Positions 24,064-47,213 of a stretch of 64,000 nt of DNA are shown piece by piece (position 1 is the first letter of the stretch; every line of letters starts with the position of its first letter). The position numbers and the translations under genes were made by a program. The stretch spans positions 124,001 to 188,000 of the forward strand of contig JAJDDN010000007.1 in NCBI GenBank assembly GCA_029260295.1, in the 5' to 3' direction. The stretch is from Phycisphaerales bacterium (lineage in GTDB: Bacteria > Planctomycetota > Phycisphaerae > Phycisphaerales > UBA1924). A model generated the notes under the pieces. That model made no database searches, was not told the origin of the DNA, and saw only the letters and a program-made list of their open reading frames with translations.

Positions 24064-26217
24064 TTATGGGCAGCCAGAGTTCATCGCATTGATAAACGCA
24101 AAGAAGTCGTTGACATCAAGCTGATTATCCTGTGTCATATCAGCGATCTGATCGTTATTGATGTACGCATTGATGAACTTGGAGATGTCGAAGAAGTCAA
24201 CAACGCCATCGCCCTGGAAATCCGCTGGGCATGACTTGAGCCCGTTGAAGAACCGGCGTGCCTCGGTGAATGCTTCTGGTCCGATCACCTGACCCATGTG
24301 ACGGCCCGGAAGGTCGTCTGCGGGGGGGTGGATCCCGCCCCAGATGCGGGAGAGCGAGCACTGATCCGATGCGTCCTGATAGGTCGCCCACTGAAGGGTA
24401 ATGTCCATCGAGGGGCCATCTTCAAAGACGAGGAACTCGTTCATCGGTGCTACGAACTCGCCCATCCCACCCGGGAAGTATTCGGTGCCGGTAAGCATGG
24501 TCATGATCTCGGCTGCACCGCGCGAGAAAGTCGAGTGGCCCGAGACAAATCCAGCAAACGGTGGAGTCACAAAGCTTGGGCGCTGATACGGCCACCAGTT
24601 CTCTGCGAGCATCCAGCCAACACCCGCGATGTCAGAATCAGGGTTTACGATATGGGTTGGTCCGAGCCAAGCCTTGACGGCGATCTTGCCTTCGTTACCG
24701 AGCAGATGCTCGTGCTTCTGGCCTGGTGCTGTTGACGCTGGAGTGACGAGTTCGATGATGTCTGGGTACAGATTGATCCCGCCTGGGTGGAAACTGGCCA
24801 GTTTCGGATCTGAACATTGACCCAGATCACACATGGCGCGGATCGCTGATACCGGACGGATGTAGTCGTAGTACCCTTTGACCGACCATGCGGCGATGGC
24901 GATATCGTGCATCGCGCCGCCCATGATGAGGTAGGACTTCACATCCCACTCCAGATCATCAACAAGTGGACCTTCACCCATGAAACGCTTCTCGTTGAGC
25001 GGGTGATCCGTTACATAGTTCAGCAGCGTAAACCAGTGACCCGGGGGTGTCTCTGAGTCAGGACCGTCGGCCCAGAACTCGGCGAGGATGCGGCCGTAAT
25101 CACCACGAGGGACAATTTGTGGTTCGTATGGCAAGTTGGTCGAAGGATTCACATCGTACCCGGTACCCCAATCGCCACCCTCAAGATGATTGTAGTAAAT
25201 GGATTCTTCGTTCATCTGCGCAAGCTCGGCGTTGCCGATAGCACCCGGCGAGATATCGATCATGACGCCGTCGGAGGCATCAAGGTGCGCCGACCAAGTG
25301 ATGACCATTTCGTTTCCCCACTTGTAGCGGGCATCACCTTCTTTGGTGCCGTAGTAGGGTGGTGCACCCGGATCGTGCCAGACGGCCCAGTCGATACCAT
25401 CACGCTCAATCACCGTAAGATCGTTTGGATTGAGAGAGAAGGATGCCACCTCGCCCCATTCAGGACCGAGGAACTCTGGATAACCAAACGGGATTGGGTT
25501 CCCGGACTGGTCAACAAAGAACTCAAGAGCGAGCGGCTGCCAGCGGTTGATATCAAGAATGTCTGGGTTGCCCGGGAAATCTGGGAGCAGCGGCGGGTTG
25601 ACTGGTTCGTATACCAGGTTTGCATACCCGCCCTGTTCATTGGCGCCGTCGGTCAGGCCAAATGTGATGATTGTCTGAGCAATACGGTTGCCGAGCGAAG
25701 CTGGATCGTTGCCAACTGCACCCTCGTAGGAGATGTCATACCCGAGTTCCGCCATCAGGAGGTCGTATTCTGGGAACACGATCGGGGCGGCGGGAGATGA
25801 CGCAAAACGATGACGGAGCAAGCGATACATCGCGTAGCTCATCGCTTCTTCGCGGGCGGCTTCAACATTCTTAGCTGAGAGCTTCTCATGATGCAGAACC
25901 TGGTCAGCCTGGGCGTCGTAGGCTGCCCAAGCATCCCACATCGCGGCACTGGTATGGTACAGGTTGCGTGAGTGAACTGTCGGACGAGCAAAGTCTTTGC
26001 GGATCGAGTCGAGCAGGACTTCGTTCCACTGGCGAGCTACAGAATGATTGAGCACGCCCTGGTTCTGACGAATGGTTTCCCGTTTCTCGGCGGTCAACCC
26101 TGATTGAACAGTCATTGGAGTACCCGATGGGTCACCTGCTGAAGCTGTTGTAGTGCCCATTGAGACGCATAGAGCCATGCCTGCGCATAAAGAAAGCTTT
26201 TGAGTGATATTGAACAT
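24064..26217 (-). CDS. Secreted vanadium-dependent haloperoxidase-like protein with dockerin-like GCP tail
   Basis: 717 residues from ATG 26217, which has AGGAGG 8 bases upstream; a longer frame to 26307 lacks this. Signal peptide MFNITQKLSLCAGMALCVSM. The PAP2/vanadium haloperoxidase signature is complete: KGYYDYIRP (K-x6-RP), FVSGHSTFSRG, and SRIWGGIHPPADD (SR-x3-G-x-H-x3-D), giving the lysine, arginines and two histidines that hold vanadate or phosphate. The last 55 residues form two calcium-loop-like dockerin repeats (CPADFQGDGVVDFFDIS ... DMTQDNQLDVNDFFAF) ending NSGCP; the second loop diverges from its relatives. Either haloperoxidase or acid phosphatase activity is possible. It heads the secretome island. 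Confidence 0.88.
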   Translation of the reverse strand: MFNITQKLSLCAGMALCVSMGTTTASAGDPSGTPMTVQSGLTAEKRETIRQNQGVLNHSVARQWNEVLLDSIRKDFARPTVHSRNLYHTSAAMWDAWAAYDAQADQVLHHEKLSAKNVEAAREEAMSYAMYRLLRHRFASSPAAPIVFPEYDLLMAELGYDISYEGAVGNDPASLGNRIAQTIITFGLTDGANEQGGYANLVYEPVNPPLLPDFPGNPDILDINRWQPLALEFFVDQSGNPIPFGYPEFLGPEWGEVASFSLNPNDLTVIERDGIDWAVWHDPGAPPYYGTKEGDARYKWGNEMVITWSAHLDASDGVMIDISPGAIGNAELAQMNEESIYYNHLEGGDWGTGYDVNPSTNLPYEPQIVPRGDYGRILAEFWADGPDSETPPGHWFTLLNYVTDHPLNEKRFMGEGPLVDDLEWDVKSYLIMGGAMHDIAIAAWSVKGYYDYIRPVSAIRAMCDLGQCSDPKLASFHPGGINLYPDIIELVTPASTAPGQKHEHLLGNEGKIAVKAWLGPTHIVNPDSDIAGVGWMLAENWWPYQRPSFVTPPFAGFVSGHSTFSRGAAEIMTMLTGTEYFPGGMGEFVAPMNEFLVFEDGPSMDITLQWATYQDASDQCSLSRIWGGIHPPADDLPGRHMGQVIGPEAFTEARRFFNGLKSCPADFQGDGVVDFFDISKFINAYINNDQIADMTQDNQLDVNDFFAFINAMNSGCP

Positions 26218-26500
26218 ACTGATTCCTCCTCTTTGAATCCTGCCAAACCCGAGCATGGAACTGCCGGGTATACGAATCCAATGTACACATTTCTGTCTAT
26301 AAATCAAGAGTAAAAGCCATTTTCACGCAACCTCTTGGATCAAAGCAGGTCCGGCCTGGTTATTTGATCTTCGGCACTGCCAATAACTTTTGTATAGACG
26401 GCGAAAGGATATTTTTATCTGAATGTCAACTTCGCGCGCAAAGCAGCGATATTTGCAGGAACTTCGAAGCACCGCTTGGCGTAGAATCAACAGATGTGCT
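26218..26500. other. Gene-free leader region upstream of tmRNA
   Basis: Non-coding stretch between the haloperoxidase start and the tmRNA gene. It should hold the promoters of both. A TTTTGTATAGAC stretch near 26390 and a TAGAAT near 26482 look like -10 boxes, but spacing to -35 elements is not convincing. One open frame here (26364-26741) runs across the tmRNA and is not a gene. Confidence 0.4.
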
Positions 26501-26517
26501 CTCGAGACGGTCTCGAG
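26501..26517. promoter_or_regulatory. Perfect palindrome just upstream of tmRNA
   Basis: CTCGAGACGGTCTCGAG is a perfect inverted repeat with 8-base arms and a 1-base centre, ending 9 bases before the tmRNA 5' end. It could be an operator in the promoter spacer or -10 region, or a hairpin in a 5' precursor. Role inferred only from position. Confidence 0.45.
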
Positions 26518-26526
26518 GCATGAACT

Positions 26527-26878: not shown

Positions 26879-26910
26879 TTATTTCCTTACCTTGGACAAG
26901 GTAGGGCTCA

Positions 26911-27088: not shown

Positions 27089-27127
27089 CAAACGAAGATC
27101 GTCATATATCCGCCTGATAAGAGGGTT

Positions 27128-29582: not shown

Positions 29583-31139
29583 ATGAAACCCGCAATCAAA
29601 ATCTCTTCGCTCCTTTTTGGGTTATCGGTCGGTTCAACAACCTACGCGGACATCACGCCTCATTGGCAAGCCAATGTTGAGCCTGCTGATCTCTGGCTGC
29701 TGCATGATGCGACAGCCGACTCAAGCGGTGCTACATATGTACTCTCCACGCTTCAGGTTGGGCCAGAGGTGGGCGATGTTGATATCGGGATCGTCCGTGT
29801 TCACAGCGACGGCACGCATGGGTGGGAGACCTCATTTGCCGGGCCAAGCGGCCAAGATGTGCCCGCCGCGATCACGATGTCATGGGACCAGTCCGCGGTC
29901 TATGTGCTTGGGCGGAGCTCGGTGCCCGGGTTTGGCAACACGGACTATGCAATCATCAAATACGATGCAGATTCAGGCGATGTGATCTGGAGCAAGCTTG
30001 TCGATGGCGGCGATCAAGGGCTCGACAGCCCGAGAGATATTGCCGCGACTCCAGATGGTGGCGTGGTTGCAACCGGGGGGTTTGATACCGCTAATGAACA
30101 GCGTGATTTCGGGACAGTGAAGCTCGACGCAGACGGGAACACCGTTTGGACACGATTGTGGACCGGGCAAGGTCCGTTCCTGTTTGAAAACGATGATGCC
30201 ATGCTTGTCGTAGTCGACCCCAGCGGCAATGTCGTCATCAGCGGGGACACCTCATCATTTGATAACACCGACATTGTGACTGTTAAATATGACGGGAATG
30301 ACGGCACAACACTCTGGGAAGCACGCTACAGCACATCCCTCGCGGACAACGCGCGGGACCTGGCACTCACTCCCGATGGCGATGTGGTGCTTCTGGGGAA
30401 GGATCCGTTTGGATTTGATCACCAGTGGCTTGTCGCCAAATACGATGGGATTACCGGTGCAGAGCACTGGTTCATGCTGGTTGATCCGGGGAGTGATGAT
30501 TCTCAGCGTGCCATCACGGTCGCACCCGACGGCACAATCTTCGCAACCGGCGGTACGGACCCTGACGGCGATGACAGCAACGGCAATAACAACCTGATCA
30601 CCATCGCGTACGAAGGCGATACAGGTGTTGTGCGGTGGCTCACAGAATGGGGCGGCGGGGCGAACAATGAAGCCGAGTTTGGCAATGGAATCCATGTCGA
30701 TGCTCTTGGAAACCTCTTCGTGGCTGGACATACTTCCACAGCCGCGTATACAAAGGGCCTCTTTGACACCGTTGGCCTCATGCTAAAGCTCGACCCGCAA
30801 ACCGGGAGCGTACTCGACATGGGCACGGTCACATCGGACTCCGCACAAGGGATTAGCTGGGATTCATTCCGCTTCCTGAATACGGACGGGCAGGGAAACA
30901 TGATCGCAACCGGAACTTCCAATGGGGGCGGCGGGAATCAGGTTCTGGTTGCCCGGTTTAACAATCAAAGCTGTGCAGCAGACTTTACAAACGATGGGCA
31001 GCTCGATTTCTTTGATATCTCCGCATTCTTAATCGCATTCACAGAGTCGAACCCGCTTGCCGATTTCACAGGCGATGGCGAGTTCGATTTCTTTGACATC
31101 TCAGAACTCCTCTCGGCATTCCAGCTTGGCTGCCCATAA
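29583..31139 (+). CDS. Secreted SBBP-type beta-propeller protein with GCP tail
   Basis: 518 residues; AAGGA lies 5 bases before ATG 29583. Signal peptide KISSLLFGLSVGSTTYA. The body is a series of roughly 55-65-residue propeller blades with the recurring turn D-x-x-G-x-[IV]-x-x-[ST]-G: TPDGGVVATGGF, DPSGNVVISGDT, TPDGDVVLLGKD, APDGTIFATGGT, DALGNLFVAGHT, alternating with KYDxxTGxxxW segments. This resembles SBBP or PQQ-like quinoprotein propellers without a clear cofactor site. The last 55 residues are the double dockerin tail, CAADFTNDGQLDFFDIS ... DFTGDGEFDFFDIS ... LGCP. Extracellular or surface display is inferred. Confidence 0.85.
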   Translation: MKPAIKISSLLFGLSVGSTTYADITPHWQANVEPADLWLLHDATADSSGATYVLSTLQVGPEVGDVDIGIVRVHSDGTHGWETSFAGPSGQDVPAAITMSWDQSAVYVLGRSSVPGFGNTDYAIIKYDADSGDVIWSKLVDGGDQGLDSPRDIAATPDGGVVATGGFDTANEQRDFGTVKLDADGNTVWTRLWTGQGPFLFENDDAMLVVVDPSGNVVISGDTSSFDNTDIVTVKYDGNDGTTLWEARYSTSLADNARDLALTPDGDVVLLGKDPFGFDHQWLVAKYDGITGAEHWFMLVDPGSDDSQRAITVAPDGTIFATGGTDPDGDDSNGNNNLITIAYEGDTGVVRWLTEWGGGANNEAEFGNGIHVDALGNLFVAGHTSTAAYTKGLFDTVGLMLKLDPQTGSVLDMGTVTSDSAQGISWDSFRFLNTDGQGNMIATGTSNGGGGNQVLVARFNNQSCAADFTNDGQLDFFDISAFLIAFTESNPLADFTGDGEFDFFDISELLSAFQLGCP

Positions 31140-31205: not shown

Positions 31206-33392
31206 ATGAAACCACTCGTCACCCTATCCCTACTCGGACTCGCTACAACGACGATCGCAATCACCCACGCCGAACCGGGGGATGTATCGTGGGAACTAAT
31301 CCGTCCGTCCAACACCGGAATACCGGGCGATTTCACGCAAACTATCTTTATTGACGATGACGATTCGCCTTGGATCGGCGGGTACATCACATTCTGGGAA
31401 GAGGGCGGGATCGGACACTTTGACGGGACCAACTGGAAGGTGCTGGGCAATGTGGATTGCAACCAGATCCTCAGCCCACGATTCAATGATGTAGTCAAAA
31501 CAGATGACGGCATCATGTGGATCGGCTCAGATCAAGGCTTGCTCCGATTCGACCCGAGCGTTGAACCCTGGTGCGTAACTCGGCTTCATGCCAACAACTC
31601 AGGGCTCATCGGGAATCAGGTTGTCGGCCTTGACATTGCGCCAGACGGGACGATCTGGATCGCTAATCAAGAATCCGGGGGCTCTTCACGCGGTGGTCTC
31701 GTGCAGTACGATCCCGCGGCCAACTCATGGAACTCATGGAGCACCTCCAACGGGCTCCCCTGGTGGGCGGGCTGGGATTGGGTGGACTTTGTCAATGTCC
31801 AAGCGGATTCAGCCGGCGGGTACACCGTCTGGTTCGGGTCCAACGAGATGGGATTGACAACCTACAAAGATGGCTTGTTCATCTGGTACGGGAGTCCAAC
31901 ACCACCCGATGTCAGCCCGTTTCCTATGGGGGTCATCGGGAACGGCTCGATGGATCAGTTCGGGAATCTGCTCTTTCAGACCGACCAAGGAATGGCACTC
32001 CGCGCCAAAGATGGCACATACACCATGATCCCCTCCCCACCCGCCGGCGGGACTTCAACGCTGCTTCCCAGCGGCCGCATCGCGGTAGCAAGCTCGACGA
32101 GCACGCATATCTGGGACGGTTCATGGTCGTCGTTTGGTCCTTGGGGCGGGAGTGCGACCTACACAATCGCAGAAGATTCGACCGGAGCGTTGTGGGCCGG
32201 CGGGATCGGCGGGGCGGCCAAACTGACCAACGGGGTTTGGCAGCGGCACCGATTAACCAACACCGGGATGCTTGGATACTTTATTGACGCCATCGCACTG
32301 GCAGCCAACGGCGATGTCGTGATGAACGGGAACGCCGGTCCGGGCGTTGGCGGGTTTGACATCATGCACCCCGACCGAACATGGACGAATGCCAATGTAC
32401 TGACTTATGGCATCGGATTGACCTGGCCGTACCCGACCGATGACACCGCAGCGCTCGCGTATCGATCCACCGGCGAACTGCTTTTCTCTCCTTGGGGCAA
32501 CGGCGTCAAAGAGTACGACGGCGTGAACTACAGAGAGCTGATCCCCAACAGTTGGCCAATCAAGCATTTCGGGATTTCAGAGAGCGGCCGTGCATGGGCG
32601 GCAACCGGGAACGGCAACCTGTTCCGTGAGAACGATGATGGGCAGATGCTTATTGATGAGCGGTTCACCGGTGAGAACAGCCCGCTTCCTGCAGGCAACA
32701 TTTCCGGGATTGTCGCGGATCCTCTGGACCCTGAATCCGTCTGGATCGCGGCGTCATTCGGGCTCGCAAAGACCGACGGCACAAACTGGACAGTCATCCC
32801 ACGCGAAGCATTCGGGCTCGATCAAGACACACTCGGGTATCACATCGCTGATTTCGATGTCGCCGATGACGGCACACTCTGGGTTTCTTCCGGGATTGGG
32901 CTGTTTCACTACGACCCAGCAATCGGCCTCATCGAAACCTTTGACCTAACCAATGCACCGCTGCCCTCTGACGACATCTTTAATATTGAGATCGCGCCCG
33001 ATGGGTCGGTCTGGTTCTCGATGTTCGATGGCACATTCCCCTACCCCGGCGGCGTAGCTCAGCTCAAGGACGGCCAGTGGCGCGTTTGGCAGCAGCCAAC
33101 AAGCCCGCTCCCGCATAATCAAATCAACGACATCCAATCGCGGCCGACCGCTGACGGCTACGAGATCTGGATCGCGACAGCGAGCGAAGCGGTCGCGGTG
33201 ATCAGCGTGGAGGGTGCTGGTGCCTGCCTTGCAGATCTGACCGGGGACGGCGTGCTGGACTTCTTTGATATATCCATGTTCCTCAGTGCATTTACAGTGG
33301 GCGATCGTGCTGCAGACTTTACGGGCGATGGCGTACTTGACTTCTTTGATATTTCAGCGTTCCTGAGCGAGTTCATCGCTGGGTGCCCATGA
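31206..33392 (+). CDS. Secreted regulator-propeller-type protein with GCP tail
   Basis: 728 residues from ATG 31206, with GGAG 6 bases upstream (ATG 31200 is too close to it). Signal peptide VTLSLLGLATTTIAITHA. The body has about a dozen short blades typical of two-component-regulator propeller proteins: DGTIWIANQESGG, EDSTGALWAGGIGG, VADDGTLWVSSGIG, APDGSVWFSMFDG, preceded by SNTGIPGD or TNTGMLGY type turns. There is no kinase or DNA-binding part, so the propeller is a free extracellular module. C-terminal tail: CLADLTGDGVLDFFDIS ... DFTGDGVLDFFDIS ... AGCP. The gene lies 66 bases after the previous one, with its own ribosome site. Confidence 0.85.
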   Translation: MKPLVTLSLLGLATTTIAITHAEPGDVSWELIRPSNTGIPGDFTQTIFIDDDDSPWIGGYITFWEEGGIGHFDGTNWKVLGNVDCNQILSPRFNDVVKTDDGIMWIGSDQGLLRFDPSVEPWCVTRLHANNSGLIGNQVVGLDIAPDGTIWIANQESGGSSRGGLVQYDPAANSWNSWSTSNGLPWWAGWDWVDFVNVQADSAGGYTVWFGSNEMGLTTYKDGLFIWYGSPTPPDVSPFPMGVIGNGSMDQFGNLLFQTDQGMALRAKDGTYTMIPSPPAGGTSTLLPSGRIAVASSTSTHIWDGSWSSFGPWGGSATYTIAEDSTGALWAGGIGGAAKLTNGVWQRHRLTNTGMLGYFIDAIALAANGDVVMNGNAGPGVGGFDIMHPDRTWTNANVLTYGIGLTWPYPTDDTAALAYRSTGELLFSPWGNGVKEYDGVNYRELIPNSWPIKHFGISESGRAWAATGNGNLFRENDDGQMLIDERFTGENSPLPAGNISGIVADPLDPESVWIAASFGLAKTDGTNWTVIPREAFGLDQDTLGYHIADFDVADDGTLWVSSGIGLFHYDPAIGLIETFDLTNAPLPSDDIFNIEIAPDGSVWFSMFDGTFPYPGGVAQLKDGQWRVWQQPTSPLPHNQINDIQSRPTADGYEIWIATASEAVAVISVEGAGACLADLTGDGVLDFFDISMFLSAFTVGDRAADFTGDGVLDFFDISAFLSEFIAGCP

Positions 33393-33457: not shown

Positions 33458-36400
33458 ATGACAACTACTACAACACACAGATCCACGGCTGCTGCCATTA
33501 CTCTGAGCTTTTTGATTTGCTCGATGTGTATGGGCCAAGCGAGCTTCACCGAAGACTTTGAAAGCAACGGCTTGAACGGAACCGAGATGGGACCCCAAAA
33601 CCTGATCGACCGTGGGTGGGAGTTCAGGAACGAATCGGATCCTGCTACGGGCTCCGCATTCTTTAATGGCGACGGGTTTGGAGGGGAACCATTCGATGGG
33701 ACAGGCTATCTCGGGGCATCATCGCTTGCGACTGACTGGTTCGGCGGGGAACTCGACTCATGGGCGATCCTTCCCGATATCCAGAACCAGATCGCCGGTG
33801 ATCTGGTGACCCTCTGGGTGTTGGGAGGCGGGGCCTTCTCTTCGCAGACCTCCTTTGAGATCCTGTACTCTGCTGGCGTTGACACCGGCACCGGGTTCGG
33901 GATCGATGGACGGGGCGACTTCACACAAGAACTCCATGCCACTAGCCTGCCGGTCTCTGAGAGCGGGTACACGCGTATTCAGGTTCCCGTTCCGGGTGAC
34001 GGGCGGATCGCGTTGCGTTTCCGTTCGCCGTTTATTATGAGCGCGTTTGGCAACGGGGCGTATTTCTCGATTGACACTCTTTCGGTCAATGCTGATGCTT
34101 CGGATCCATGCAGCATCTCGATTCCCGATGCCGGCGAGACCGTTGTCTGGGCTGCTGCCGACGGCCCGTTTGTAGTCTGCCAAAATCTGGTCATCCCCGC
34201 TGGCGGGCGTGTTGAGATCGAGGCTGGCGCCACCGTGGATTTCTCGGGTGGTACACTTCTAGTTGAGGGGGAACTGGTCGCGGCTGGCACGGATCTCAAT
34301 CCGATTACACTCACAGGCCAAAGCGGGTTTAGCACCGGCCTCGAGTTCAATCTCGGTGGATCAGGCGAACTCAGCAACACGACAATAAGCACCACAGTCG
34401 ATGTCAACGGCACCTTCTCGTCGTTGATCCTCACTGATTCGAATATTATTCAATCGGGCCAGATCACAGGCATCGGCGGGCTCGTATCGGTCGATGGGTG
34501 TTTGTTTGACGGTGGGTCACTTGGCAACTTCTGGTCAATCGCCGGGACAATCCGGCTCACCAACTCTGACTTCATCAATGGGGGCTCAGCCGCCGTTGCG
34601 GGGTTGCTCTACCTCGACCATGTGACAATCGACGGCGGCATGCTCCGCATCGCCGGCGAATCTACAGCACACCCGATCTTGCTAGACAACATCTCGGTCA
34701 CCAACAACACCGCTGGACCGGGCATCAAAATGTACGGCCCCAACTTCCTGATCGGTGACAATGTCGTGCTCTCCGGGAATCAGTACCCGCTCGAGATGGA
34801 TTTTGATGGCGCGGGGTTGCTACCTGGTTCCAAGCTCCCACTGACCGGCAACACATTCAACCACATCCCGGTCGAATCCTTCCCATTCGCACAGAACCGT
34901 CACTGGGCCGACACCGGCATCCCGTATGTAATCGGCGACTTCGCCGACAACCGTGGCGGGTCGATGATCATCGAAGCGGGTGCGAACCTCAAGTTTCTTC
35001 CCAACGCAGGATCCTTCATCATCGGATCGGCAAACCTCGAACTCAACGGTACAAAAGAGAAACCGATCGTGCTCGAATCGTTCTCTCCATCACAACGCTG
35101 GTTTGGTCTCAAATGGGTTGATGTGTTTGATGCCAAGGCGAGGCACACGATCTTTGATGGCGGACAAATCACCGCCCAGTCTGATGGCGGCGTGCTCGAT
35201 CTTGTCCACAGCACTGTGCAGAACTCCCTAGAAGGGACCGCATCGGTCACCGGCGGGATTGTGCGGCTGTACGGATCGAAGATCATCAATAACGATGTTG
35301 GCATGGTAACAACCACCTCGGGCCGTATTGAAGCAGACGGTTTCATCGCGCCGAGCATCTTTGAAGGCAACAATGTTGCCGTCGAGTACAACAACACTAA
35401 CTCGCTGCCGTTCCTCCGGAACAACTGGTGGGGCGACGCGTCGGGTCCAACCAATATCCTTCACCCAACCGGCACCGGCGATTCGGTGATCAATGTCCAC
35501 CCAGCCGCGTTCTCGCCTTTCCTTTCTGCTCCTCCCGCGATTGATGATGAGTACCCAGATATCGAGATGATGCCGGTGTATTTCACCGCTCAGGTCGGAG
35601 ATAAAATCATCCTCCGCTGGTCCTCGTCGGATGATATTGATGTTGTCGAACACCGCGTCGAGTTTGCGGCTCACGATTTCCCCAACGAGTTCCAGACAAT
35701 CGCCGTTCTTGGCGGCAATGAGTTCACCTACGAGTTCACGGCTCCGGTTGTTCTCCCGAACAATCTGTATCCAACACCATCAGCGATCCGAATCGTCGCG
35801 GTGGACTCGGCCGGGCAAGAGTCCTGGGACAAATCAGTCCTCCGCATTCCCTACCAGGAAGATTGGACAGTGGTCGAGCAGACCATCCAATCCCCGATCG
35901 GCTCGGTCCGCCCACACGAAAGCATTGATGTATGCTGGGGACCAGGCGGGTTTGCCAGCGCGTTCATCATGCTCGACGGCATCGGCCTGAGTGATTCAGC
36001 GGGCGGCACAACCACCGGTTGCTTGCCCATCGGGGCGACACTTCCGTATTCGAGCAGCGACACCGCCAGGATCGTGGTCGTGACGACCTTCGGTGCTGGC
36101 GGCCGGCTCCATTATTCCTTCGGGGATTACTTCTCGATCCGTCCAGACACACGCTTTGGTGATGCAGCACCTGCTGTTGAGATCCGATCACCGCTGGCGG
36201 GGAGTTCGTACTCTGGAGGGAGCACGATCCCAATCAACTGGACCGCTTCGGATGATGAATCACTCCGGTCATTCAGGATTCAGGCAAGCTACGACGGGGG
36301 TCGCACTTGGCACTATGTTGCCACCGATCTACCGGCAGAAGCACGGTCATTTAGCTGGGTCCTCCCAAATAGCTCCGGGATCGGTGATGTCCGGGTCCGG

Positions 36401-36678: not shown

Positions 36679-39267
36679 ATGAAAAACTCAACACTCATCA
36701 GTGTACTGATCGCAGCCGGGCTCGCTCAAAGCCCAGCTCTCGCACAGTTCTGCAACTTTGACACCCCGGTGTCTTACAACATCCCTTCCCCGTTCGGGAG
36801 CTCATCGCCCTCGTATATCGCATCGGGTGATATAGACAACGATGGGGACATTGATCTGATTACCGACTCCAACGGCCCCGGCAATGACCCGACGCAGATC
36901 CTCTGGAACGATGGGACGGGCATCTTCTCGCTCGGGCCTGTCCTCACCAGCGGGTGGGGGTTTGGGCAAGTCGCCCTCGGCGATATGGACGGCGACGGTG
37001 ATCTTGATGTCCTCCGCGCCAACTACTGGAGCAACGGGGTCATGTTCTACCGCAACAACGGGGACGGATCGTTCTCCAGCCCGACCTTCTACGCCGGCGG
37101 CGGCGGGTGCGTGGCGGTGCTCTTTACCGACTTTGATAATGATGGCGATCTGGACTTTGTAACTGTCAACAAGTTCGGTAACCAGATCAGGCCATACCGG
37201 AATATTAACGGGCTCGGTTTTACATCGGTTGGTTTATTCGATTGCGGGAGCGACCCGCTGGGAATGACCTCTGCGGATGTTGATCATGACGGAGATCAAG
37301 ATATTGTGGTGACCAATGAAGATTCTGCAACCATGACCGTGCTTTATAATGACGGGATGGGCTTGTTTCCGACGCGTCAATCCTTCCCCGTCGGGCAACG
37401 GCCAACGGATGTGGTGCTCGCGGATTTCAATGGCGATTCCCATCTTGATGCGGTGGTGACCGACTGGAACTCGCTCATCGGGATCGGCAACACAGTCTCG
37501 GTCTTACTCGGTGACGGATCCGGAAGCTTTGGCACCCGCCAGACCTACACAACCGGTGTAGGCCCGCGCAGTGTTCGCACGGCCGATATGAACGGAGACG
37601 GCACGCTCGACCTCGTCGTGGCCTGTGAGATTTCTGATACGCTTTCAGTTCTCTCAGGAAACGGCGACGGCACATTCGATGAGAACCAAACATTCGATGC
37701 GGGGTTCTCTCCAAACTTCCTTGCTCTTGACGATTTAGACGCCGACGGCGATATTGATATCGCCTTTGTGTCCAACGGTTCAAACCGACTGGTTACCGTT
37801 GGGAATGATTGCTCGACCCCGATCGACCCTCCAAGCATGGTCGTCAACTGGCAGGCGGAGTTCGACAACTTCTTTAATATCGACAAGGGCACGCACATTG
37901 TCACCACCAGCACCGGTGAATCAATTGTTGCCGGGACAACCAGCTTTAACTTCAACGAGGAAGATTTCCTGATCCTCAAGTTTGACTCTCAGGGCAACAA
38001 ACTCTGGGAAGTCACATATAACGGGTCGGGTGACCATTTCGATCAACCCCAGTTCGTAGGGCTCGATTCCAACAACAACATCTTCGTTGCCGGGAAATCA
38101 TGGGGAACGAACTCGAGTATTCAATGGGCGGTCCTCAAGATCGACCAATCGGGGAACATCCTCTGGACCCGCAGATACGACGGTGGCAACCCATCGGCTC
38201 AGCAAAACCCGCTCGGCTTTGCCATCGGTCCAAGCGGGGAGTTCGCGATGTGCGGCTGGACTCAGGATCCGATTCTGCTGGCCGCCCAGTTTGCGGTAGT
38301 CAAGTACGATTCATCGGGGAATCAAGTCTGGGATATCGCAATCGGGGGCCAATCATTTGAGAGTGCCCAGGCCGAGGCTCTTGCCTTCGACTCTCATGGA
38401 AATGTGTTCGCTACAGGAACCGCGCCCATCATCGGCGCATCCGGTGACGAAATGCTCACCGCAAAGATCGACACCTCCGGCACCATCCTCTGGACTGATC
38501 GCCAAGATCTATCACCAGACACTTTTTTTCACACCACGGTCGGTCGTGCGATAACTACAAATGCTGCGGGAACTATTTTCGTCGCTGCGGATGTGAACAT
38601 CAATGGATTCAGTGACTCAGATGCGACTTTGGTTGTTTATACACCAGACGGATCTATTCAAAGCATAATCTCTGACACTCGGCCCGGCTCCGTGCTGCCA
38701 TCGAATCTCCTCTGGACTGATACCGATTCCCTGCTCATGACGGGTTTCTCCGGGAGTGGGCAAGTCTTTGCGACAAGCTTTGATGCCGCGGGCTTCGTCC
38801 AGTGGACCAGCAATATTGAAGCAGAATATCGATCGGTGAATCGTGGCGGACATGTCGCCCTGGGAACCGACGGGATGCTGTACTTCCTCGATTCCGCGAT
38901 CGGAGATGTTGCCGTAGAACAGTGGAGCACTGGCGGCGAGTTCATATCTCGGACTCAGTTTGATCTTGGATCAGCCCAAGATATTCCCATGGCTATCACA
39001 TCAAGCCCCGCGGGTCATGTGTCGGTGGCCGGAGAATATCAACCCCTCATCGTGAGTCGCCAGGATGTATTCGTGCTCGATCTTGTCGGCGCCAATTCCT
39101 GCTCGCCTGATCTAACGGGTGATGGCCAGCTCGATTTCTTTGATATCAGTTCTTTCCTTGTATCCTTTCGTACCAACGACCCGTCTGTCGATTTCACTGG
39201 CGACGGTGCCTTTGATTTCTTCGACATCTCGATGTTCTTGCAACTCTTTAGCCAGGGATGCCCTTGA
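36679..39267 (+). CDS. Secreted FG-GAP/VCBS plus SBBP propeller protein with GCP tail
   Basis: 862 residues from ATG 36679, preceded by GGAAGG. Signal peptide STLISVLIAAGLAQSPALA. The first half has at least six FG-GAP/VCBS repeats with calcium-type loops: DIDNDGDIDLITDS, DMDGDGDLDVLRAN, DFDNDGDLDFVTVN, DVDHDGDQDIVVTN, DMNGDGTLDLVVAC, DLDADGDIDIAFVS, as in integrin-like seven-bladed propellers. The second half switches to SBBP-like blades (DSNNNIFVAGKS, DSHGNVFATGTA), so this is a fusion of two propellers. The tail is CSPDLTGDGQLDFFDIS ... DFTGDGAFDFFDIS ... QGCP. Confidence 0.87.
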   Translation: MKNSTLISVLIAAGLAQSPALAQFCNFDTPVSYNIPSPFGSSSPSYIASGDIDNDGDIDLITDSNGPGNDPTQILWNDGTGIFSLGPVLTSGWGFGQVALGDMDGDGDLDVLRANYWSNGVMFYRNNGDGSFSSPTFYAGGGGCVAVLFTDFDNDGDLDFVTVNKFGNQIRPYRNINGLGFTSVGLFDCGSDPLGMTSADVDHDGDQDIVVTNEDSATMTVLYNDGMGLFPTRQSFPVGQRPTDVVLADFNGDSHLDAVVTDWNSLIGIGNTVSVLLGDGSGSFGTRQTYTTGVGPRSVRTADMNGDGTLDLVVACEISDTLSVLSGNGDGTFDENQTFDAGFSPNFLALDDLDADGDIDIAFVSNGSNRLVTVGNDCSTPIDPPSMVVNWQAEFDNFFNIDKGTHIVTTSTGESIVAGTTSFNFNEEDFLILKFDSQGNKLWEVTYNGSGDHFDQPQFVGLDSNNNIFVAGKSWGTNSSIQWAVLKIDQSGNILWTRRYDGGNPSAQQNPLGFAIGPSGEFAMCGWTQDPILLAAQFAVVKYDSSGNQVWDIAIGGQSFESAQAEALAFDSHGNVFATGTAPIIGASGDEMLTAKIDTSGTILWTDRQDLSPDTFFHTTVGRAITTNAAGTIFVAADVNINGFSDSDATLVVYTPDGSIQSIISDTRPGSVLPSNLLWTDTDSLLMTGFSGSGQVFATSFDAAGFVQWTSNIEAEYRSVNRGGHVALGTDGMLYFLDSAIGDVAVEQWSTGGEFISRTQFDLGSAQDIPMAITSSPAGHVSVAGEYQPLIVSRQDVFVLDLVGANSCSPDLTGDGQLDFFDISSFLVSFRTNDPSVDFTGDGAFDFFDISMFLQLFSQGCP

Positions 39268-41195: not shown

Positions 41196-43373
41196 ATGCG
41201 TATATCCAATTGGACCGCTGCTGCTACTACTGCAGCCGTGCTGACATCGATCATCACACCCTCCTTGGCCGATGTTGGCCCGGGAGTGTGTGATGGTGAG
41301 CGTCCGCAGTTTACAGCAGACGAATTTCAAGCCTTCGGCGGAGGACAGATCGCCGTCGGAACACAATGGCGTTCAAACGACGCCGAGGGCGTTCTCAATG
41401 TGTACGACCTGACCGGCCAAACCGGAGCACCGCTGGGTGTCGATTGGCCCACCAATATCTACACGCACCCGGAATGGGTCCGCTCGACTATTGGAGAGGT
41501 CTTTGGGGTCGCTCTGGATGATCGCGGGAATATCTACGCCGCCCACACCGCGGTTTACTTCTCAGACAACATCGGCTCCATCGGCGGACAGCCCGGACAG
41601 GTGTACATCATCGATTCGGTCACCGGGGCCCCGACTGTGTTTGCAACACTCCCCAACAACAGCGACCCGATCATCGCGGCTTCACCCTTCGGTGTGGCCG
41701 AGTCCTACCCGGGCCTTGGCAACCTCTGCTTTGATGTCGATAAGCAAGCTGTGTATGTGTCCAACTTCGAAGACGGCCGCATCTATCGCATCGACGCATC
41801 GGGCACCTGCCTGAGCACATGGGACCACGCGACCGGGCTCGTCTCAGATTGCACCCCCGAAGCCGGTGACGGCGAGGGTGCCGCCCGCTTAGGCGAGCGT
41901 GTTTGGGCGGTTCAGTCATTCAACGGTCGGGTGTATTACTCACTCTGGGTTGAGGACCGCGGTGCTCCAGACCCAACGGCTGCAAACGAAATTTGGTCGA
42001 TCGCGTATGACGCCGCCGGCGAGTTTATTGCAGGCACAGAACAACTCGAAATTTCAGTGCCTCAAATTACACCTGAATATTCGAATCCTGTTTCCGACAT
42101 CTCCTTCGGGCCTGCAGGTCAAATGATGATCGCAGAACGGACCATGAGGACCGACCCGGCTACAGGCCGGTTCAACACCGAACCGCACCAATCCCGAGCC
42201 CTTGAGTATGTGTGTGAGCAACAAGCACAAGGAGTAGTATGGGTCCCTTCGGGCAACGCCTTCTCCGTTGGTGGAGGCACGAGCAACAGCGCCGACTCGG
42301 CCGGCGGCGTTGACTACTCATATGCAGCGGCTCCGGACGACCGCGTCTGGGTCACCAGCGATGCGATGATCCTTGGCACTCCGGGCATCGGCCCGAATGT
42401 CTACGGCATCCAAGGCTTGCCGCAAGCAGGCGGGAATGTCGCCAGCTCGATCTTGATCGATATGGACGCAGAGATCTTGCAGCAAGACAAATCCGGTATC
42501 GGATCGGTCGAAGTCTCTTGCCCGGGATTCGTTCAGGGTCCATGTGCAACCGTTTCAAAAGAAACTATCTTGTGTGACCTCGACAACTCGGGCAACTACA
42601 CATACACCTTCGACCTGACCAACAACTCTGGCCAGGATGTCGCGTACCTGCTCGTGCTCCCCGATGCCGGGCTCAATGTGGTCCCCTCAGGGCTCATTGT
42701 GCTGCCATCACTCCTGCTCGACGGAGACACCACGCAGGTCTCGATCACATTCAACGGCGGGAACCCGGGCGACGAGCTGTGCTTCACGCTCAGCCTCAAC
42801 ACTTCGGACTTCGAAGAATGCTGCGCGATCCGGCCATGTATCATCGTGCCCGATTGTGACTGTGCTCAGATCCACGACGAGAGCGTGGCCTGCGCCCCCG
42901 ACGGCACCGGGTGCTTCACCTACACCTTCGATGTGGACAACCTGCTCCCGATCGACATCTACTACTCGTACTTTGTGCCGATCTCACCAGCAGGTGTCAC
43001 GATCGACACAGGCAATGTTGACCCATCCCGCTGGGACTACAGCCCGGTCCCAAGCCTGGGAACCGAGACTGTAACCGTCACCATCTGCGGCTCAATGCCT
43101 GGCGAAGAGGTTTGCTTCATCATGACCATGCACAACGAGTCGCTCGAAGAGTGCTGCTCGATTGAGATCTGTGTCATCACACCCGATTGCGGTAATGGGA
43201 TTGAGTGTCCCGCAGACTGCAACGGCGATGGTGTTCTGGACTTCTTTGATATCTCAGTATTCCTCGGCGAGTTCACAACTCAAGATCCGCGTGCGGATAT
43301 GAACGGTGATGGCAACTGGGACTTCTTTGATATCGCAAGCTTCCTCACGGCCTTCAACCAGGGCTGCCCGTAA
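41196..43373 (+). CDS. Secreted propeller plus DUF11-like module protein with GCP tail
   Basis: 725 residues; GAGGGG lies 6 bases before ATG 41196. Signal peptide AAATTAAVLTSIITPSLA. N-terminal 400 residues form a propeller-like region (FGVALDDRGNIYAAHTAVYF, DKQAVYVSNFEDGRIYRID, DISFGPAGQMMIAERTM). Two cysteine-rich Ig-like repeats follow, each starting C-x-x-[IV]-x-x-E-x-x-x-C and ending with E-E/L-C-C-x-I-x-x-C-[IV] (YTFDLTNNSGQDVAYLLVL; YTFDVDNLLPIDIYYSYFV). Tail: CPADCNGDGVLDFFDIS ... DMNGDGNWDFFDIA ... QGCP, with an extra cysteine in the first loop. The 205-base upstream gap has GC-rich hairpins just before the ribosome site (41081-41180). Confidence 0.85.
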   Translation: MRISNWTAAATTAAVLTSIITPSLADVGPGVCDGERPQFTADEFQAFGGGQIAVGTQWRSNDAEGVLNVYDLTGQTGAPLGVDWPTNIYTHPEWVRSTIGEVFGVALDDRGNIYAAHTAVYFSDNIGSIGGQPGQVYIIDSVTGAPTVFATLPNNSDPIIAASPFGVAESYPGLGNLCFDVDKQAVYVSNFEDGRIYRIDASGTCLSTWDHATGLVSDCTPEAGDGEGAARLGERVWAVQSFNGRVYYSLWVEDRGAPDPTAANEIWSIAYDAAGEFIAGTEQLEISVPQITPEYSNPVSDISFGPAGQMMIAERTMRTDPATGRFNTEPHQSRALEYVCEQQAQGVVWVPSGNAFSVGGGTSNSADSAGGVDYSYAAAPDDRVWVTSDAMILGTPGIGPNVYGIQGLPQAGGNVASSILIDMDAEILQQDKSGIGSVEVSCPGFVQGPCATVSKETILCDLDNSGNYTYTFDLTNNSGQDVAYLLVLPDAGLNVVPSGLIVLPSLLLDGDTTQVSITFNGGNPGDELCFTLSLNTSDFEECCAIRPCIIVPDCDCAQIHDESVACAPDGTGCFTYTFDVDNLLPIDIYYSYFVPISPAGVTIDTGNVDPSRWDYSPVPSLGTETVTVTICGSMPGEEVCFIMTMHNESLEECCSIEICVITPDCGNGIECPADCNGDGVLDFFDISVFLGEFTTQDPRADMNGDGNWDFFDIASFLTAFNQGCP

Positions 43374-43522: not shown

Positions 43523-44728
43523 TCAAGGACAGCCGGCTTGGAAATCCGTAAGGAACGCGACGATATCGAAGAAGTCAAAGACCGTATCGCCGTTGTAATC
43601 AAGACGAGGACCCAAGAGTGCGACGATGTCGAAGAAGTCGAGGAAGCCGTCGCCGTTGAGGTCCGCGGGACAAGGATCAATCACCCTGTAGCTGCTCGGC
43701 CCATGAAGACGACCATCGCCCACCTCGGTGAGCGAAAGCGACGATGAGATTGCCATTGTTGAAATGAAGTCGCCGTTGGCGGTCCAGAGTCCTTCCGAGA
43801 CGGCCTGGCTGGTACGGAAATCGGCACTACCAACTCCTTGCCCATCAATGTTCCATTGAAGATGATCGGCGATCAAGGTGCTGTTCCCGAAGCTGACAAT
43901 GCCATTGGTGCCGGGAAAAAAGAGCTGCATCCCGTAGGCATCCTGATCAAGCGGGGTAGCGAAGCTGCCACCGAGTGAAGAGCGGTTCAGGTGGTCCGGA
44001 TCGACCGGCGCATCATTATTGAAATGAATAAAGACCGATGTCCCCGCCTCGATGGTGACCCCATTGAGACCCGACGCACCCGAGTACCGGCGTGATTTAT
44101 TAAAGTCATGCGTGCATGTCCTCCACCCGGTCAGGTCCTGATCGATTGAGCCGTAGTTGAAGAACTCGATGGTGCCATTGTCGAAATCGATTCTTTGGAT
44201 CTGAATATCCCGTGGCTCGGCCATCGCGCCGGCAACAACCTCAATCCGCCCGGTCATATCAAGGTGCCCAGTGATCCGGCAGGTGTAGAAGTAATCCCCG
44301 ATATCACCAGCAACCAGTGTCCATTCGATAAAATCTGCAGTTGGTGCGGGGTCAGCCGTGAAGTCCGCGATTGGTGCCAGCGTTGCCGCATCCATCACCG
44401 CTCCGCTTGCGGTGGTACGGAAGTACGATCCATCTGTCCCCGCCACCGGCATCGAGGTATCGGTGATGATAAACGGATGCCCGCTTGTTGTTCTTGTAAA
44501 TGTGTAGGTCTGGCCCGCTGTCAGAATGAGTGTCGGGTCAGACTCATTGACCACACTCCCGCTCGAATCGGTCCAGCTGAACAAGTAATCGGAAATCGCG
44601 TTGTGACTCAGTTCAAAGTTCACACCGGATTCGACACGAAAGACATTCGGAGCCACTTCAGTAGTTTGTGCATGTCCAAATGTTGCCAGGACCATCGCCA
44701 GGCCAACTGTGATTCTGTTCATTCTCAT
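43523..44728 (-). CDS. Secreted cupredoxin / lamin-tail protein with short GCP tail
   Basis: 401 residues from ATG 44728 (GGAG ten bases upstream; ATG 44722 possible). Signal peptide ITVGLAMVLATFGHAQ. Residues 25-165 are a cupredoxin domain with a likely type 1 copper site: histidine in TSGHPFIIT and YTCRITGHLDM, where C-x4-H-x2-M supplies the other three ligands. Residues 170-300 read as a lamin-tail domain (IQRIDFDNGTIEFFNYGS, DLTGWRTCTHDF, FIHFNND). The tail is the 49-residue short form: CPADLNGDGFLDFFDIVALL ... DYNGDTVFDFFDIVAF ... AGCP. A copper-binding or electron-transfer role outside the cell is inferred. Confidence 0.85.
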   Translation of the reverse strand: MRMNRITVGLAMVLATFGHAQTTEVAPNVFRVESGVNFELSHNAISDYLFSWTDSSGSVVNESDPTLILTAGQTYTFTRTTSGHPFIITDTSMPVAGTDGSYFRTTASGAVMDAATLAPIADFTADPAPTADFIEWTLVAGDIGDYFYTCRITGHLDMTGRIEVVAGAMAEPRDIQIQRIDFDNGTIEFFNYGSIDQDLTGWRTCTHDFNKSRRYSGASGLNGVTIEAGTSVFIHFNNDAPVDPDHLNRSSLGGSFATPLDQDAYGMQLFFPGTNGIVSFGNSTLIADHLQWNIDGQGVGSADFRTSQAVSEGLWTANGDFISTMAISSSLSLTEVGDGRLHGPSSYRVIDPCPADLNGDGFLDFFDIVALLGPRLDYNGDTVFDFFDIVAFLTDFQAGCP

Positions 44729-44918
44729 TTTGTTCTCTCTCCGTTGGTACTTTGCTCTGCTTGCTTACATATCAATAAAGATTCGCACAAAAAACTATTG
44801 CACAAATCGATCGCACCGAAACAATCCGCAGCATACTCCATCGGGATGCAATCAATCCTAACAATGCGCAATCCGCGCATTCTATTTCAGGCAGTACTGC
44901 ATTCTGGACAAGAGCCCG

Positions 44919-45326
44919 TTATGGGCAACCGGCTTGGAAGTCATTAAGGAAACCAACAATATCAAAGAAGTCAAAAGCCGTGTCGCTGTTATAATCAAGG
45001 CTGCCACCCAAGAGGGCCGCAATATCAAAGAAGTCAAGGGCGCCGTCGCCGTTGAGATCCGCCGGGCATGGCGCCGCGGTGCTCACCCCGGCCCAGAACC
45101 CACCAGTCAACGAGAATGAACCGCCGGTCATCGCAGCACCCGCATCGGGCTGACCGATGGTGCCGCTCAACGCAAATGAACCGCCCGTTGAGTTGATGGA
45201 ACCTCCGCCATCAATGGTTGACCAAGGAATCTGAAAAACTCCACCCGATGGTCCACCTGACAAGGCTGGCATCGCAGCCACAGCCAACATAGCAATCCCG
45301 GCAAATACAGTTGGTGATTGTTTCAT
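44919..45326 (-). CDS. Short secreted protein with short GCP tail
   Basis: 135 residues; GAGG eight bases before ATG 45326. Signal peptide VFAGIAMLAVAAMPALSGG. The mature N-terminal half has the repeat STIDGGGSINSTGGSFALSG, IGQPDAGAAMTGGSFSLTGG, FWAG, a pattern I associate with planctomycete surface proteins of unknown role. It is then joined directly to the short tail CPADLNGDGALDFFDIAALL ... DYNSDTAFDFFDIVGF ... AGCP, making this close to a minimal carrier of the tail. It sits between two other minus-strand tailed genes. Confidence 0.8.
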   Translation of the reverse strand: MKQSPTVFAGIAMLAVAAMPALSGGPSGGVFQIPWSTIDGGGSINSTGGSFALSGTIGQPDAGAAMTGGSFSLTGGFWAGVSTAAPCPADLNGDGALDFFDIAALLGGSLDYNSDTAFDFFDIVGFLNDFQAGCP

Positions 45327-45425
45327 AATGCTTCCCTCGCGTTCAAAGTATTCAACAATCCTATCACAGCTTTGGCCTATTTCGCTATCAATTACTCAAC
45401 TTTGTAGAAGAATCTCTCCGCTGCA

Positions 45426-47213
45426 TCAAGGGCATCCCCCGCCGAACGCCGTGAGGTAGGATGCGATATCAAAGAAATCAAACCCGGTATCCCCGTTGAA
45501 ATCGACTGCGTTACTCAGGAAGAACGCGATGTCGAAGAAATCAAGGGCACCGTCGCCGTTGAGGTCCGCTGAACATGGGGTCATCGCCGCAATATCTTCA
45601 GAATCAATATCAAAGTCGCCGTCCATATCGAAGATTTCTACACCAGGCTCAATCTTGATACCAGGGCCAGTAATCGCGGCTGTTGCGGCTGCGATTTCGG
45701 CTGCATCAATAGTTCCGTCGTTATTCACATCTCCGAGTCGAGATTGGTTATAAATCGACCATGTCCTATCAGCGGGTACACCGGTCAACTGACGAACCAC
45801 TCCGCCAGGCCAAACCACTTCAACCATCAACGCCTCGGTATCTGCCCCAAGACCAAACTGAACAGTCCGCCCCTCGCTTGCCTTGTAGTTCACCCCTGAG
45901 CGGGCTTGACCGGCCTGCCACTTGCCGTTTGCAAAGACATTGAAACATGTACCAACACACATGATGTTTCCGGCATCGCCAATCGGCTTGAACCGGACCA
46001 TATGGTTGCTGGCCGCATCTGGCGAGTTATTGATGAACAACTTGACTGTATTACTGGTGTTCCCAACAAGCATATCAAGCAAGCCGTCGTTGTTTACATC
46101 ACCCACCGCCACCGCATATGAAGTCCCGCTGACATCCACACCCGCCGCCGGACCATCGTCGGTCATTGGCCAGTCGGCAATGTCTTCGCCCCGGTACAAA
46201 CGATTGGGGGTCATCATGTTGCACACATACAAATCGGAGAACGAGTCGTTATCAAAATCTGCGAACACGGTGCCCCATCCGATTCGGCCGGAGGTTACAC
46301 CCGCGGCATCGGTCACATCCGAATAGGCCGAGGCACCATCGTGCATATATAGGACATTGCGTGAGCCATCTGTCATGTACACATCAAAGAACGAGTCGTT
46401 GTTGAGATCTGCAACCGCGATCCCCATGCAGTCGATATACGCGAACGCATTGGCCGAAGCGGTAATCTCGGTAAATATCCCGCCATCGTTGCGGTACAGC
46501 CGGTTCCACCATGAGAGCGAGGTTCCTTTGTCGGTCCCCAGATAGATATCGTCGTCCCCGTCACGATCAAAGTCGAAGAACGAAGAGAGCAGCGTAGGAT
46601 CGTTCTCAGCATCAACATTGAGCGCAACAGCGGAATCGGTGAATGTGCCATCGCCGTTGTTGTGGAACAGCATGTTTGCAGTCCAGTTACCACTCGTGCC
46701 CGAGCGCGTTGGTACATACAAGTCCATGAAGCCATCTTGGTCATAATCTGACCACGACGGCCCCATCGCTGCGGAAACTTGGTTCACGCCAGCAGTTGCC
46801 GAAACATCCGTAAAGACAAAGTTGCCATCATTTCTGTACAGCTTGCTCGATGAGAGCCAACCAGAGATAAAGATGTCTTGATCACCGTCATTGTCATAAT
46901 CAGCACAAGCAACACCCGATGCTGCGATTGCGGCCAGATTCGAGCCGATGCTGCGATCTGTATAATTACCAGCCCCGTCGTTTTCGTAGATACGAAGCGC
47001 CCCTCCAACCATCCCAGCAAGGATAATGTCGAGATCGTCATCCCCATCAAAGTCAAGCAGCCCAAGCCCAGGGCCAAACTGAGTAGCCATCGACGGGGCG
47101 ATTACATAGTTAATCCCACGCGCAACCGCTTCCTCAGTAAACGAAAGCGGAGCTGCCGTCGCCGACAATGCAACCGCCATACCAACACACACGATAACTG
47201 ACCGACCCTTCAT
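45426..47213 (-). CDS. Secreted FG-GAP / ASPIC-UnbV protein with short GCP tail
   Basis: 595 residues from ATG 47213, with AGGAGG eight bases upstream; the frame to 47246 is longer but lacks this. Signal peptide SVIVCVGMAVALSATAA. At least six FG-GAP repeats (DFDGDDDLDIILAG, DYDNDGDQDIFISG, DYDQDGFMDLYVPT, DLNNDSFFDVYMTD, DVNNDGLLDMLVGN) lead to an ASPIC/UnbV module (GKWQAGQARSGVNYKASEG, VEVVWPGGVVRQL). A separate dockerin-like pair (DVNNDGTIDAAEIAAAT, DMDGDFDIDSEDIAAM) comes before the usual tail CSADLNGDGALDFFDIAFFL ... DFNGDTGFDFFDIAS ... GGCP, so this protein holds four loops. Confidence 0.87.
   Translation of the reverse strand: MKGRSVIVCVGMAVALSATAAPLSFTEEAVARGINYVIAPSMATQFGPGLGLLDFDGDDDLDIILAGMVGGALRIYENDGAGNYTDRSIGSNLAAIAASGVACADYDNDGDQDIFISGWLSSSKLYRNDGNFVFTDVSATAGVNQVSAAMGPSWSDYDQDGFMDLYVPTRSGTSGNWTANMLFHNNGDGTFTDSAVALNVDAENDPTLLSSFFDFDRDGDDDIYLGTDKGTSLSWWNRLYRNDGGIFTEITASANAFAYIDCMGIAVADLNNDSFFDVYMTDGSRNVLYMHDGASAYSDVTDAAGVTSGRIGWGTVFADFDNDSFSDLYVCNMMTPNRLYRGEDIADWPMTDDGPAAGVDVSGTSYAVAVGDVNNDGLLDMLVGNTSNTVKLFINNSPDAASNHMVRFKPIGDAGNIMCVGTCFNVFANGKWQAGQARSGVNYKASEGRTVQFGLGADTEALMVEVVWPGGVVRQLTGVPADRTWSIYNQSRLGDVNNDGTIDAAEIAAATAAITGPGIKIEPGVEIFDMDGDFDIDSEDIAAMTPCSADLNGDGALDFFDIAFFLSNAVDFNGDTGFDFFDIASYLTAFGGGCP

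Follow-up and report, generated by a model that had tools for sequence, protein, structure and literature searches.

GC-type dockerin tails on more than 100 exported proteins of a Phycisphaerales bacterium suggest a lineage-specific docking code

We analyzed a window of 64,000 nucleotides from a Phycisphaerales bacterium of the Planctomycetota (assembly GCA_029260295.1, contig JAJDDN010000007.1, positions 124,001 to 188,000), in which an original prediction, made from the letters alone, had described nine secreted proteins that share a C-terminal double-dockerin tail ending in G-C-P. All nine open reading frames (ORFs) lie where they had been placed, and each ends in G-C-P (Table 1). Counted from the opening cysteine to the final proline, the tail has 55 residues in six proteins and 49 in three (43523, 44919 and 45426), in agreement with the 49-55 residues first given; in the short form the linker between the two loops lacks 6 residues. 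Aligned, the nine tails are invariant in the opening cysteine, the aspartates at positions 1, 5, 9 and 12 of both loops, the F-F-D-I of loop 1 and the final GCP. The bodies in front of the tails had been called unrelated; they are diverse, but some share families (SBBP, FG-GAP, choice-of-anchor B), with an SBBP-type propeller common to 29583 and 36679 and FG-GAP repeats common to 36679 and 45426. The frame of the 24064 protein is open to 26307, and the start at 26217 was chosen because the signal peptide begins there.

Table 1. Tailed proteins of the window, with positions counted from its first nucleotide
Protein	Strand	Description	Tail form	Tail	Remarks
24064..26217	-	Secreted protein, DUF6851 and VCPO_2nd (vanadium-chloroperoxidase second domain)	long	24067-24231	
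29583..31139	+	Secreted beta-propeller-type protein	long	30972-31136	PQQ_2 over cut-off, SBBP/delta-60-like below
31206..33392	+	Secreted Reg_prop (two-component-regulator-type propeller) protein	long	33225-33389	
33458..36643	+	Choice-of-anchor J protein, bacterial Ig domain Big_7	long	36476-36640	
36679..39267	+	FG-GAP and SBBP protein	long	39100-39264	
41196..43373	+	Large secreted protein	long	43206-43370	No family over cut-off beyond the tail
43523..44728	-	Protein with weak cupredoxin (rusticyanin) and lamin-tail matches	short	43526-43672	Both matches below cut-off
44919..45326	-	Small secreted protein, 135 amino acids	short	44922-45068	
45426..47246	-	FG-GAP/ASPIC-UnbV protein	short (GC)	45429-45575	

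Judging from profile matches, the tail is the NCBIfam domain NF041540 (dockerin_GC, "GC-type dockerin domain-anchored protein"), which is already named, so the tail is not new as such. Six of the nine window tails exceed the cut-off of this model (29 bits) with scores of 38.5-48.8 bits, and the three short ones fall below it (17.2, 20.8 and 7.1 bits). None of the nine proteins reaches the gathering score of 22.9 for Pfam Dockerin_1 (PF00404). The maximum, 20.5 bits, belongs to an extra internal dockerin-like pair that precedes the GC tail of the minus-strand protein at 45426-47246 (residues 504-555). No match to the PEP-CTERM model TIGR02595 was found in the nine proteins at E<=10; a separate PEP-CTERM protein stands amid the tailed genes (27128-27844, minus strand, 22.3 bits against a cut-off of 16).

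A search with the tail family, as the original prediction had proposed, places the nine tails in a genome-wide set. The genome of this bacterium (G000, here the study genome; 2.91 Mb, 92% complete) has 114 NF041540 matches at E<=10, 98 of them over the cut-off; at the same threshold four of 14 control genomes have matches, none over the cut-off. Dockerin_1 occurs at three places in the study genome, and only one (C8:548986) is among the 114. The position is terminal, as claimed: the match ends 0-1 residue from the stop in 102 cases, 2-6 residues in 7, 7-30 in 4 and more than 30 in one, so that 109 of 114 lie within 6 residues. Exact GCP ends occur in 88 of the 114 frames, and GC, or GC plus one residue, in 10 more. 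Chance can be rejected as the cause, since none of 965 other six-frame ORFs of at least 100 amino acids (from stretches of the study genome, most of them not genes) ends in GCP. The association with export also held: by a strict rule of our own making, signal peptides precede 91 of 111 tailed frames, compared with 12 of 51 long frames without a tail, a set in which some may be no genes. With the rule at its widest, 18 of the 111 still fail, 13 of these having a signal-peptide-like start by eye, and a laxer rule, run without a control, is satisfied by 111 of 114; at least one tailed frame (C6:344720) has no signal peptide.

The single copy far from a stop codon (C2:142124) lies directly behind a signal peptide, and the body downstream of it carries, by eye, TSP3-like calcium repeats. 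Genus g2 has an N-terminal copy too (L113, residues 80-134 of a 1064-residue frame), again directly behind the signal peptide, indicating that the module is used at either protein end. We also observed half-tails, with one calcium loop between the opening cysteine and the final GCP (C6:259527-259601, C2:25700-25798 and L102), which suggest that a single repeat may be enough, or that two half-tails come together.

The AlphaFold model of the tail of the 33458 protein (window 36464-36640) has a predicted local distance difference test (pLDDT) score of 93 and aligns with dockerin structures, although the absence of other folds from the structure-alignment list excludes nothing. The predicted fold is that of a dockerin, with two loop-helix calcium units packed as in that domain. 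We then asked how the two flanking cysteines behave in C-terminal two-loop tails. From 377 loop pairs we kept 335, from 35 sources; in each of the 42 dropped pairs (7 from the study genome), loop 2 is followed by more than 30 residues, and by eye these pairs include mis-parsed neighbors of terminal tails, EF-hand- and TSP3-like pairs, some plain internal dockerin-like repeats from other genomes and the N-terminal tail of L113. Both cysteines are present in 289 tails, neither in 24 and only one in 22 (Fisher 3e-20, a value inflated by the kinship of the tails). The coupling recurs within single genomes, with 94 both, 4 neither and 3 one in the study genome (n=101), 14, 6 and 2 in G096 (n=22), and, more weakly, 14, 4 and 6 in G084 (n=24). 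These counts and the model alignment include 80 tails of named records that were found by DFFD-containing patterns. Since the cysteines are kept or lost together, we infer that they form a disulfide clasp, as the original prediction had supposed. In cellulosomal dockerins the same two ends are closed by ring stacking, Tyr-Pro or Trp-Pro (PMC4728124, PMC5934362), and a disulfide in place of that clasp would be the natural reading.

The two tail lengths are separate classes. In the study genome the loops are spaced by 27 residues in 90 of 101 tails and by 21 in 11, with none between, and all 11 short-linker tails score below the NF041540 cut-off; all 35 tails of genus g2 have a spacing of 27. 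The short form recurs in four named metagenome-assembled genome (MAG) records (7 tails), and in JAESRA it is found on two adjoining proteins that by eye are close relatives of 44919 and 45426. The short class is a stable subclass; it might be read by a second receptor, or bind in one orientation only.

Among 150 genomes of the class, NF041540 has a match at E<=0.001 in 58 and over the cut-off in 30. By family, this draw gave 9 of 9 in f1 (the study genome included), 4 of 4 in f4, 1 of 7 in f3, 0 of 3 in f2 and 0 of 1 in f5. Among 392 genomes of the phylum, of which the share outside the class is not stated, 19 have a match at E<=1e-6, all 19 of the same class as the study genome; at this threshold G113 (f1) and G102, G477 and G485 (f4) have none. 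Scoring covered 37 candidates per genome in the class survey and 15 in the phylum survey, and per-genome counts from them are to be read as "at least". Full scoring at E<=0.01 gave 81 matches in G090, 78 in G084, 72 in G106, 63 in G096, 56 in G125, 39 in G113, 36 in G137, 28 in G102, 20 in G110, 15 in G056 and 14 in G058. The figure of around 200 tails in g2 refers to first-look candidates (222, 220, 223 and 135), not scored matches, which in fully scored genomes amount to about one third to nine tenths of such candidates. Of 53 named loci, all come from MAGs titled Phycisphaerales, Phycisphaerae, Phycisphaeraceae or Planctomycetota, save three from one MAG titled Cyanobacteria, presumably misnamed. 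The tails of other genomes are the best-scoring hidden Markov model (HMM) matches and the stretches around them, not a random sample. Two outlying forms were seen. G062 (family f10) has two tails only (L300, 8952-9113; L301, 1049-1210), whose code differs again (both loops of one tail read G-S-D-F-F-A-W-V); one tail is followed by 82 further residues in frame and the other ends in GCR. Genus g6 (G119; L111, L112) has an insertion in both calcium loops and an altered geometry, with GCP still near the end.

What the tail is attached to was examined in the study genome, where 90 bodies (48,798 residues) from the 101 proteins with C-terminal two-loop tails were scanned. The 25 most frequent of 50 Pfam families include FG-GAP types, LVIVD (10), subtilases (3), M12-type proteases (2), M14, M64 and M10 (1 each) and alpha-amylase (2), and no cellulase family is among these 25. 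The 25 most frequent of 70 NCBIfam families include choice-of-anchor B (10), choice-of-anchor I (2) and an MXYO-CTERM-anchored family (1). Choice-of-anchor names are given to bodies that bear different anchors in different lineages. Their presence suggests that the tail occupies the place of other lineages' anchor. MtrC/MtrF-like cytochrome domains occur in two tailed bodies and MauG-like peroxidases in two; it is possible that surface electron transfer is held by the same tail.

For comparison we examined 24 genomes of the same order, 14 tail-rich (the study genome included) and 10 tail-free. Choice-of-anchor B proteins occur in 12 of the 13 other tail-rich genomes (n=14), and all 14 have a dockerin-like end, with a degenerate second loop in the one from G137. 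Tail-free G107 has two choice-of-anchor B proteins whose ends are by eye neither dockerin nor PEP-CTERM, and the single one of G002 ends in a divergent dockerin-like sequence.

The residues of the loops differ by lineage. The consensus is L-D-F-F-D-I-S-A-F-L in the study genome, L-T-I-F-D-F-L-A-F-Q-N in g2, V-N-F-A-D-L-N in G090 and V-D-L-S-D-L-A in G106, and repeats 1 and 2 are alike within each group's consensus. Across 248 tails of nine groups, from which the 80 DFFD-pattern tails were left out (an earlier version had included them), lineage information is maximal at positions 10 and 14 of both repeats, above all 300 label shuffles, and nil at calcium ligands 1 and 12. Known dockerins have their recognition pair at 10/11, numbered 11/12 elsewhere, and by our mapping positions 10 and 14 dominate one solved hydrophobic dockerin interface (PMC4728124, PMC5301203, PMC5934362). 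The choice-of-anchor B orthologues separate lineage from protein: their tails agree with those of their own genus at 0.63 vs 0.14 with those of their own protein family, in 12 of the 12 that the loop rule could parse (the other two of the 14 were left out); in G084 the margin is small (0.26 vs 0.17). Synonymous codons at identical residues approach the saturation expected from the bodies in the study genome (0.51/0.57), G084 (0.40/0.46) and G096 (0.60/0.65). At least in the study genome, the code thus seems to be maintained by selection on the protein and not by fresh copying. Recent spread of one DNA segment is ruled out by the codon test as the source of uniformity in the study genome, but may apply in g2, G090 and G106. 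Separately, the Phe10 codon is TTC in 93 of 95 study-genome tails in repeat 1 and 91 of 95 in repeat 2, where bodies use TTC about as often as TTT; this is possibly avoidance of a T run before the next Phe codon.

Because the code is common to the tails of a genome and changes together between genera, a single co-evolving receptor would explain it best. We propose the following mechanism. The signal peptide stands in front and the dockerin-type domain at the end. Each D-x-[NT]-x-D-G-x-x-D-x-x-D loop is predicted to bind Ca2+ and start a helix, and the two units to pack together. The cysteine pair, to judge from its co-occurrence, would form a disulfide that replaces the aromatic/proline "intramolecular clasp" of cellulosomal dockerins. 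Residues around 10, 11, 14 and 18, which are similar in the two repeats (D-F-F-D-I-S in the study genome, T-I-F-D-F-L in g2), may make up a pair of equivalent binding faces and would then let the domain bind in either of two orientations. A single co-evolving receptor, not a Pfam-recognizable cohesin, would read the tails. In what is the weakest step, this receptor would sit on the cell surface, the tail anchoring many exported proteins there. We regard it as reasonably probable that the tail is a calcium-binding, disulfide-closed dockerin that docks exported proteins non-covalently to one common envelope receptor. The broader proposal, to which we give somewhat less than an even chance, is that a whole Phycisphaerales branch fastens a large share of its exported proteins (114 here, perhaps around 200 in g2) to a non-cohesin receptor by a lineage-specific dockerin code, which shifts in concert with the receptor as a "plug standard" of the cell surface.

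Several observations weigh against this interpretation. The receptor itself was not found: Pfam Cohesin (PF00963) has no match in 13 of the 14 tail-rich genomes and, in the last of them (G096), a single match below the cut-off. The study genome, 92% complete, has none, and a divergent cohesin could still be present in it. Among the 24 genomes the only Cohesin matches over the cut-off are in tail-free G066, showing no correlation with tails. The G096 match lies in a matrixin-like protein (L259, 1165-2868) with its cohesin-like domain (22.7 bits) between dockerin-like loops; as a receptor this protein was rejected, since none of the other 13 tail-rich genomes has a clear homologue (best E 0.055). 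No receptor linked to the tails of few-tail genomes stood out by eye on the two G062 contigs read. The first of these contigs also encodes two PEP-CTERM-like ends.

On the fold, Foldseek alone gives nothing significant (best E 0.81), and profile matches among solved structures are weak (n=37, best E 0.005), with four named dockerin and most being general EF-hand proteins. One or both cysteines are missing in 10 of 24 G084 tails and 8 of 22 G096 tails. Lineage information exceeds the shuffles elsewhere too, at positions that should be buried (0.82 and 0.95 bits at position 16, 0.74 and 0.68 at 13, 0.67 and 0.71 at 20), and ordinary drift therefore accounts for some of the pattern. Position 22, by our mapping the contact residue numbered 23 in C. 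thermocellum (PMC4728124), varies freely here. Related tails are not independent, which inflates the P-values, and four of the 12 orthologues come from one genus. The code can be looser, the tested tail agreeing with the other tails of its genome at 0.26 in G084, 0.40 in G125 and 0.54 in G096. Codon saturation falls short of expectation in g2 (0.27/0.45), G106 (0.33/0.48) and G090 (0.27/0.37), where tail copying may contribute to uniformity. Finally, the tail could act in the periplasm instead of at the cell surface.

The original prediction read the tail as a sorting address comparable to PEP-CTERM. Part of this is supported: many exported proteins have the tail in common, and it resembles an address. 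Of the two refuting conditions set with the prediction, frequent internal tails and no link to signal peptides, neither arose in the study genome. The comparison with a processed signal is not supported. PEP-CTERM is a short motif with a membrane helix and a basic end, and it is processed. The GC tail is a predicted folded domain with neither membrane helix nor basic end, has N-terminal copies and shows no link to exosortase, which is found in 24 of 24 genomes whether tails are present or not. The check for a co-occurring membrane protease or sortase-like gene gave none that follows the tails, with sortase (PF04203) in 0 of 24 genomes; exosortase and sortase were the two sought. The study genome has its own PEP-CTERM/exosortase system, with 31 TIGR02595 matches at E<=0.1 and one exosortase match. 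The fixed GCP end and the choice-of-anchor bodies would suit a PEP-CTERM-like or sortase-like processed signal, but with these facts against it we consider it very improbable. An address of another kind is conceivable: an outer-membrane secretion machine might recognize the folded tail, the code having co-evolved with that machine and not with a surface receptor, much as type IX cargo has a C-terminal domain recognized by its outer-membrane secretion machine. The terminal position, the signal peptide in front and the reuse on proteases, amylases, cytochrome-like proteins and propellers fit this, and the lineage code would look identical. We nevertheless find it unlikely, given the two N-terminal copies and given that known members of this domain kind bind cohesins; no type IX sorting-domain family occurs in the nine window proteins, no secretion-system search of the genomes having been made, and the type IX protein PorZ matches one window body below the cut-off.

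It is also conceivable that there is no partner, the tail being a calcium- and disulfide-stabilized cap whose uniformity comes from domain copying and drift. The undersaturated codons of g2, G106 and G090 and the lineage signal at buried positions are what such a cap would give; the nearly saturated codons of the study genome are not, nor is the near-fixation of residues 9-12 while 7, 15 and 22 vary, and a probably exposed F-F pair in both loops would be costly without a partner. We judge this account improbable. Tails of different proteins might instead bind each other, in a network without a receptor, as the half-tails with one loop and both cysteines and the likeness of the code in most study-genome tails would allow. 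We know of no dockerin whose main function is self-association, and we give this possibility hardly any credence.

The tail resembles several known systems. NF041540 describes the same domain, C-terminal, with the opening cysteine and final GC, but its model line says nothing on receptor, clasp or lineage code. Cellulosomal type I and II dockerins (PF00404) likewise carry a duplicated calcium loop, are internally symmetric and able to bind in two modes, have their recognition residues at 10/11 and along the helix, and clasp their N- and C-terminal ends together; their N-terminal and internal copies are reported to be as active as C-terminal ones (PMC4728124, PMC5301203 and PMC5934362 for the likeness, PMC5301203 for position). 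They differ in the ring-stacking clasp, where we find a probable disulfide, and in Ser-Thr recognition residues, where we find hydrophobic F-F or I-F; cellulosomes also differ in their cohesins, of which Pfam recognizes none in the study genome. Closer in lineage is the "planctosome" of freshwater Nemodlikiaceae, for which non-cellulosomal cohesin/dockerin use was proposed with peptidases as cargo (PMC6461901). It shares with our case the Planctomycetes, the non-cellulosomal use and the peptidase cargo, but cohesins were identified there, whereas here more than 100 dockerins come with no recognizable cohesin. A cohesin scaffoldin is reported for Limihaloglobus sulfuriphilus of the Planctomycetes-Verrucomicrobia-Chlamydiae (PVC) superphylum (PMC11557425), so cohesins do occur in the wider group. 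The PEP-CTERM/exosortase system is alike in putting one C-terminal module on many exported proteins, and both systems coexist in the study genome. In a literature search that left most subscription papers outside, we found no paper using "GC-type dockerin" and none with both "dockerin" and "PEP-CTERM"; within that scope there appears to be no earlier description of the two tail classes, the cysteine-clasp statistics, the code that changes in concert or the copies at the N-terminus.

That more than 100 exported proteins share a small, probably calcium-binding, plug-like domain with what looks like a species-specific contact code suggests one shared receptor, probably at the cell surface. Dockerins in cohesin-free genomes are an old puzzle. 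The number of tails, their near-fixed recognition residues and the concerted change between genera offer a direct handle on it. One would expect the receptor among envelope or exported proteins, covarying with the code and commoner in f1 and f4, which are rich in tails, than in f2, f3 and f5, for which the class survey gave few or none. Such a receptor, if found, would provide orthogonal, probably disulfide-stabilized docking pairs for protein engineering, and it would explain how a large uncultured planctomycete group holds its extracellular enzymes.

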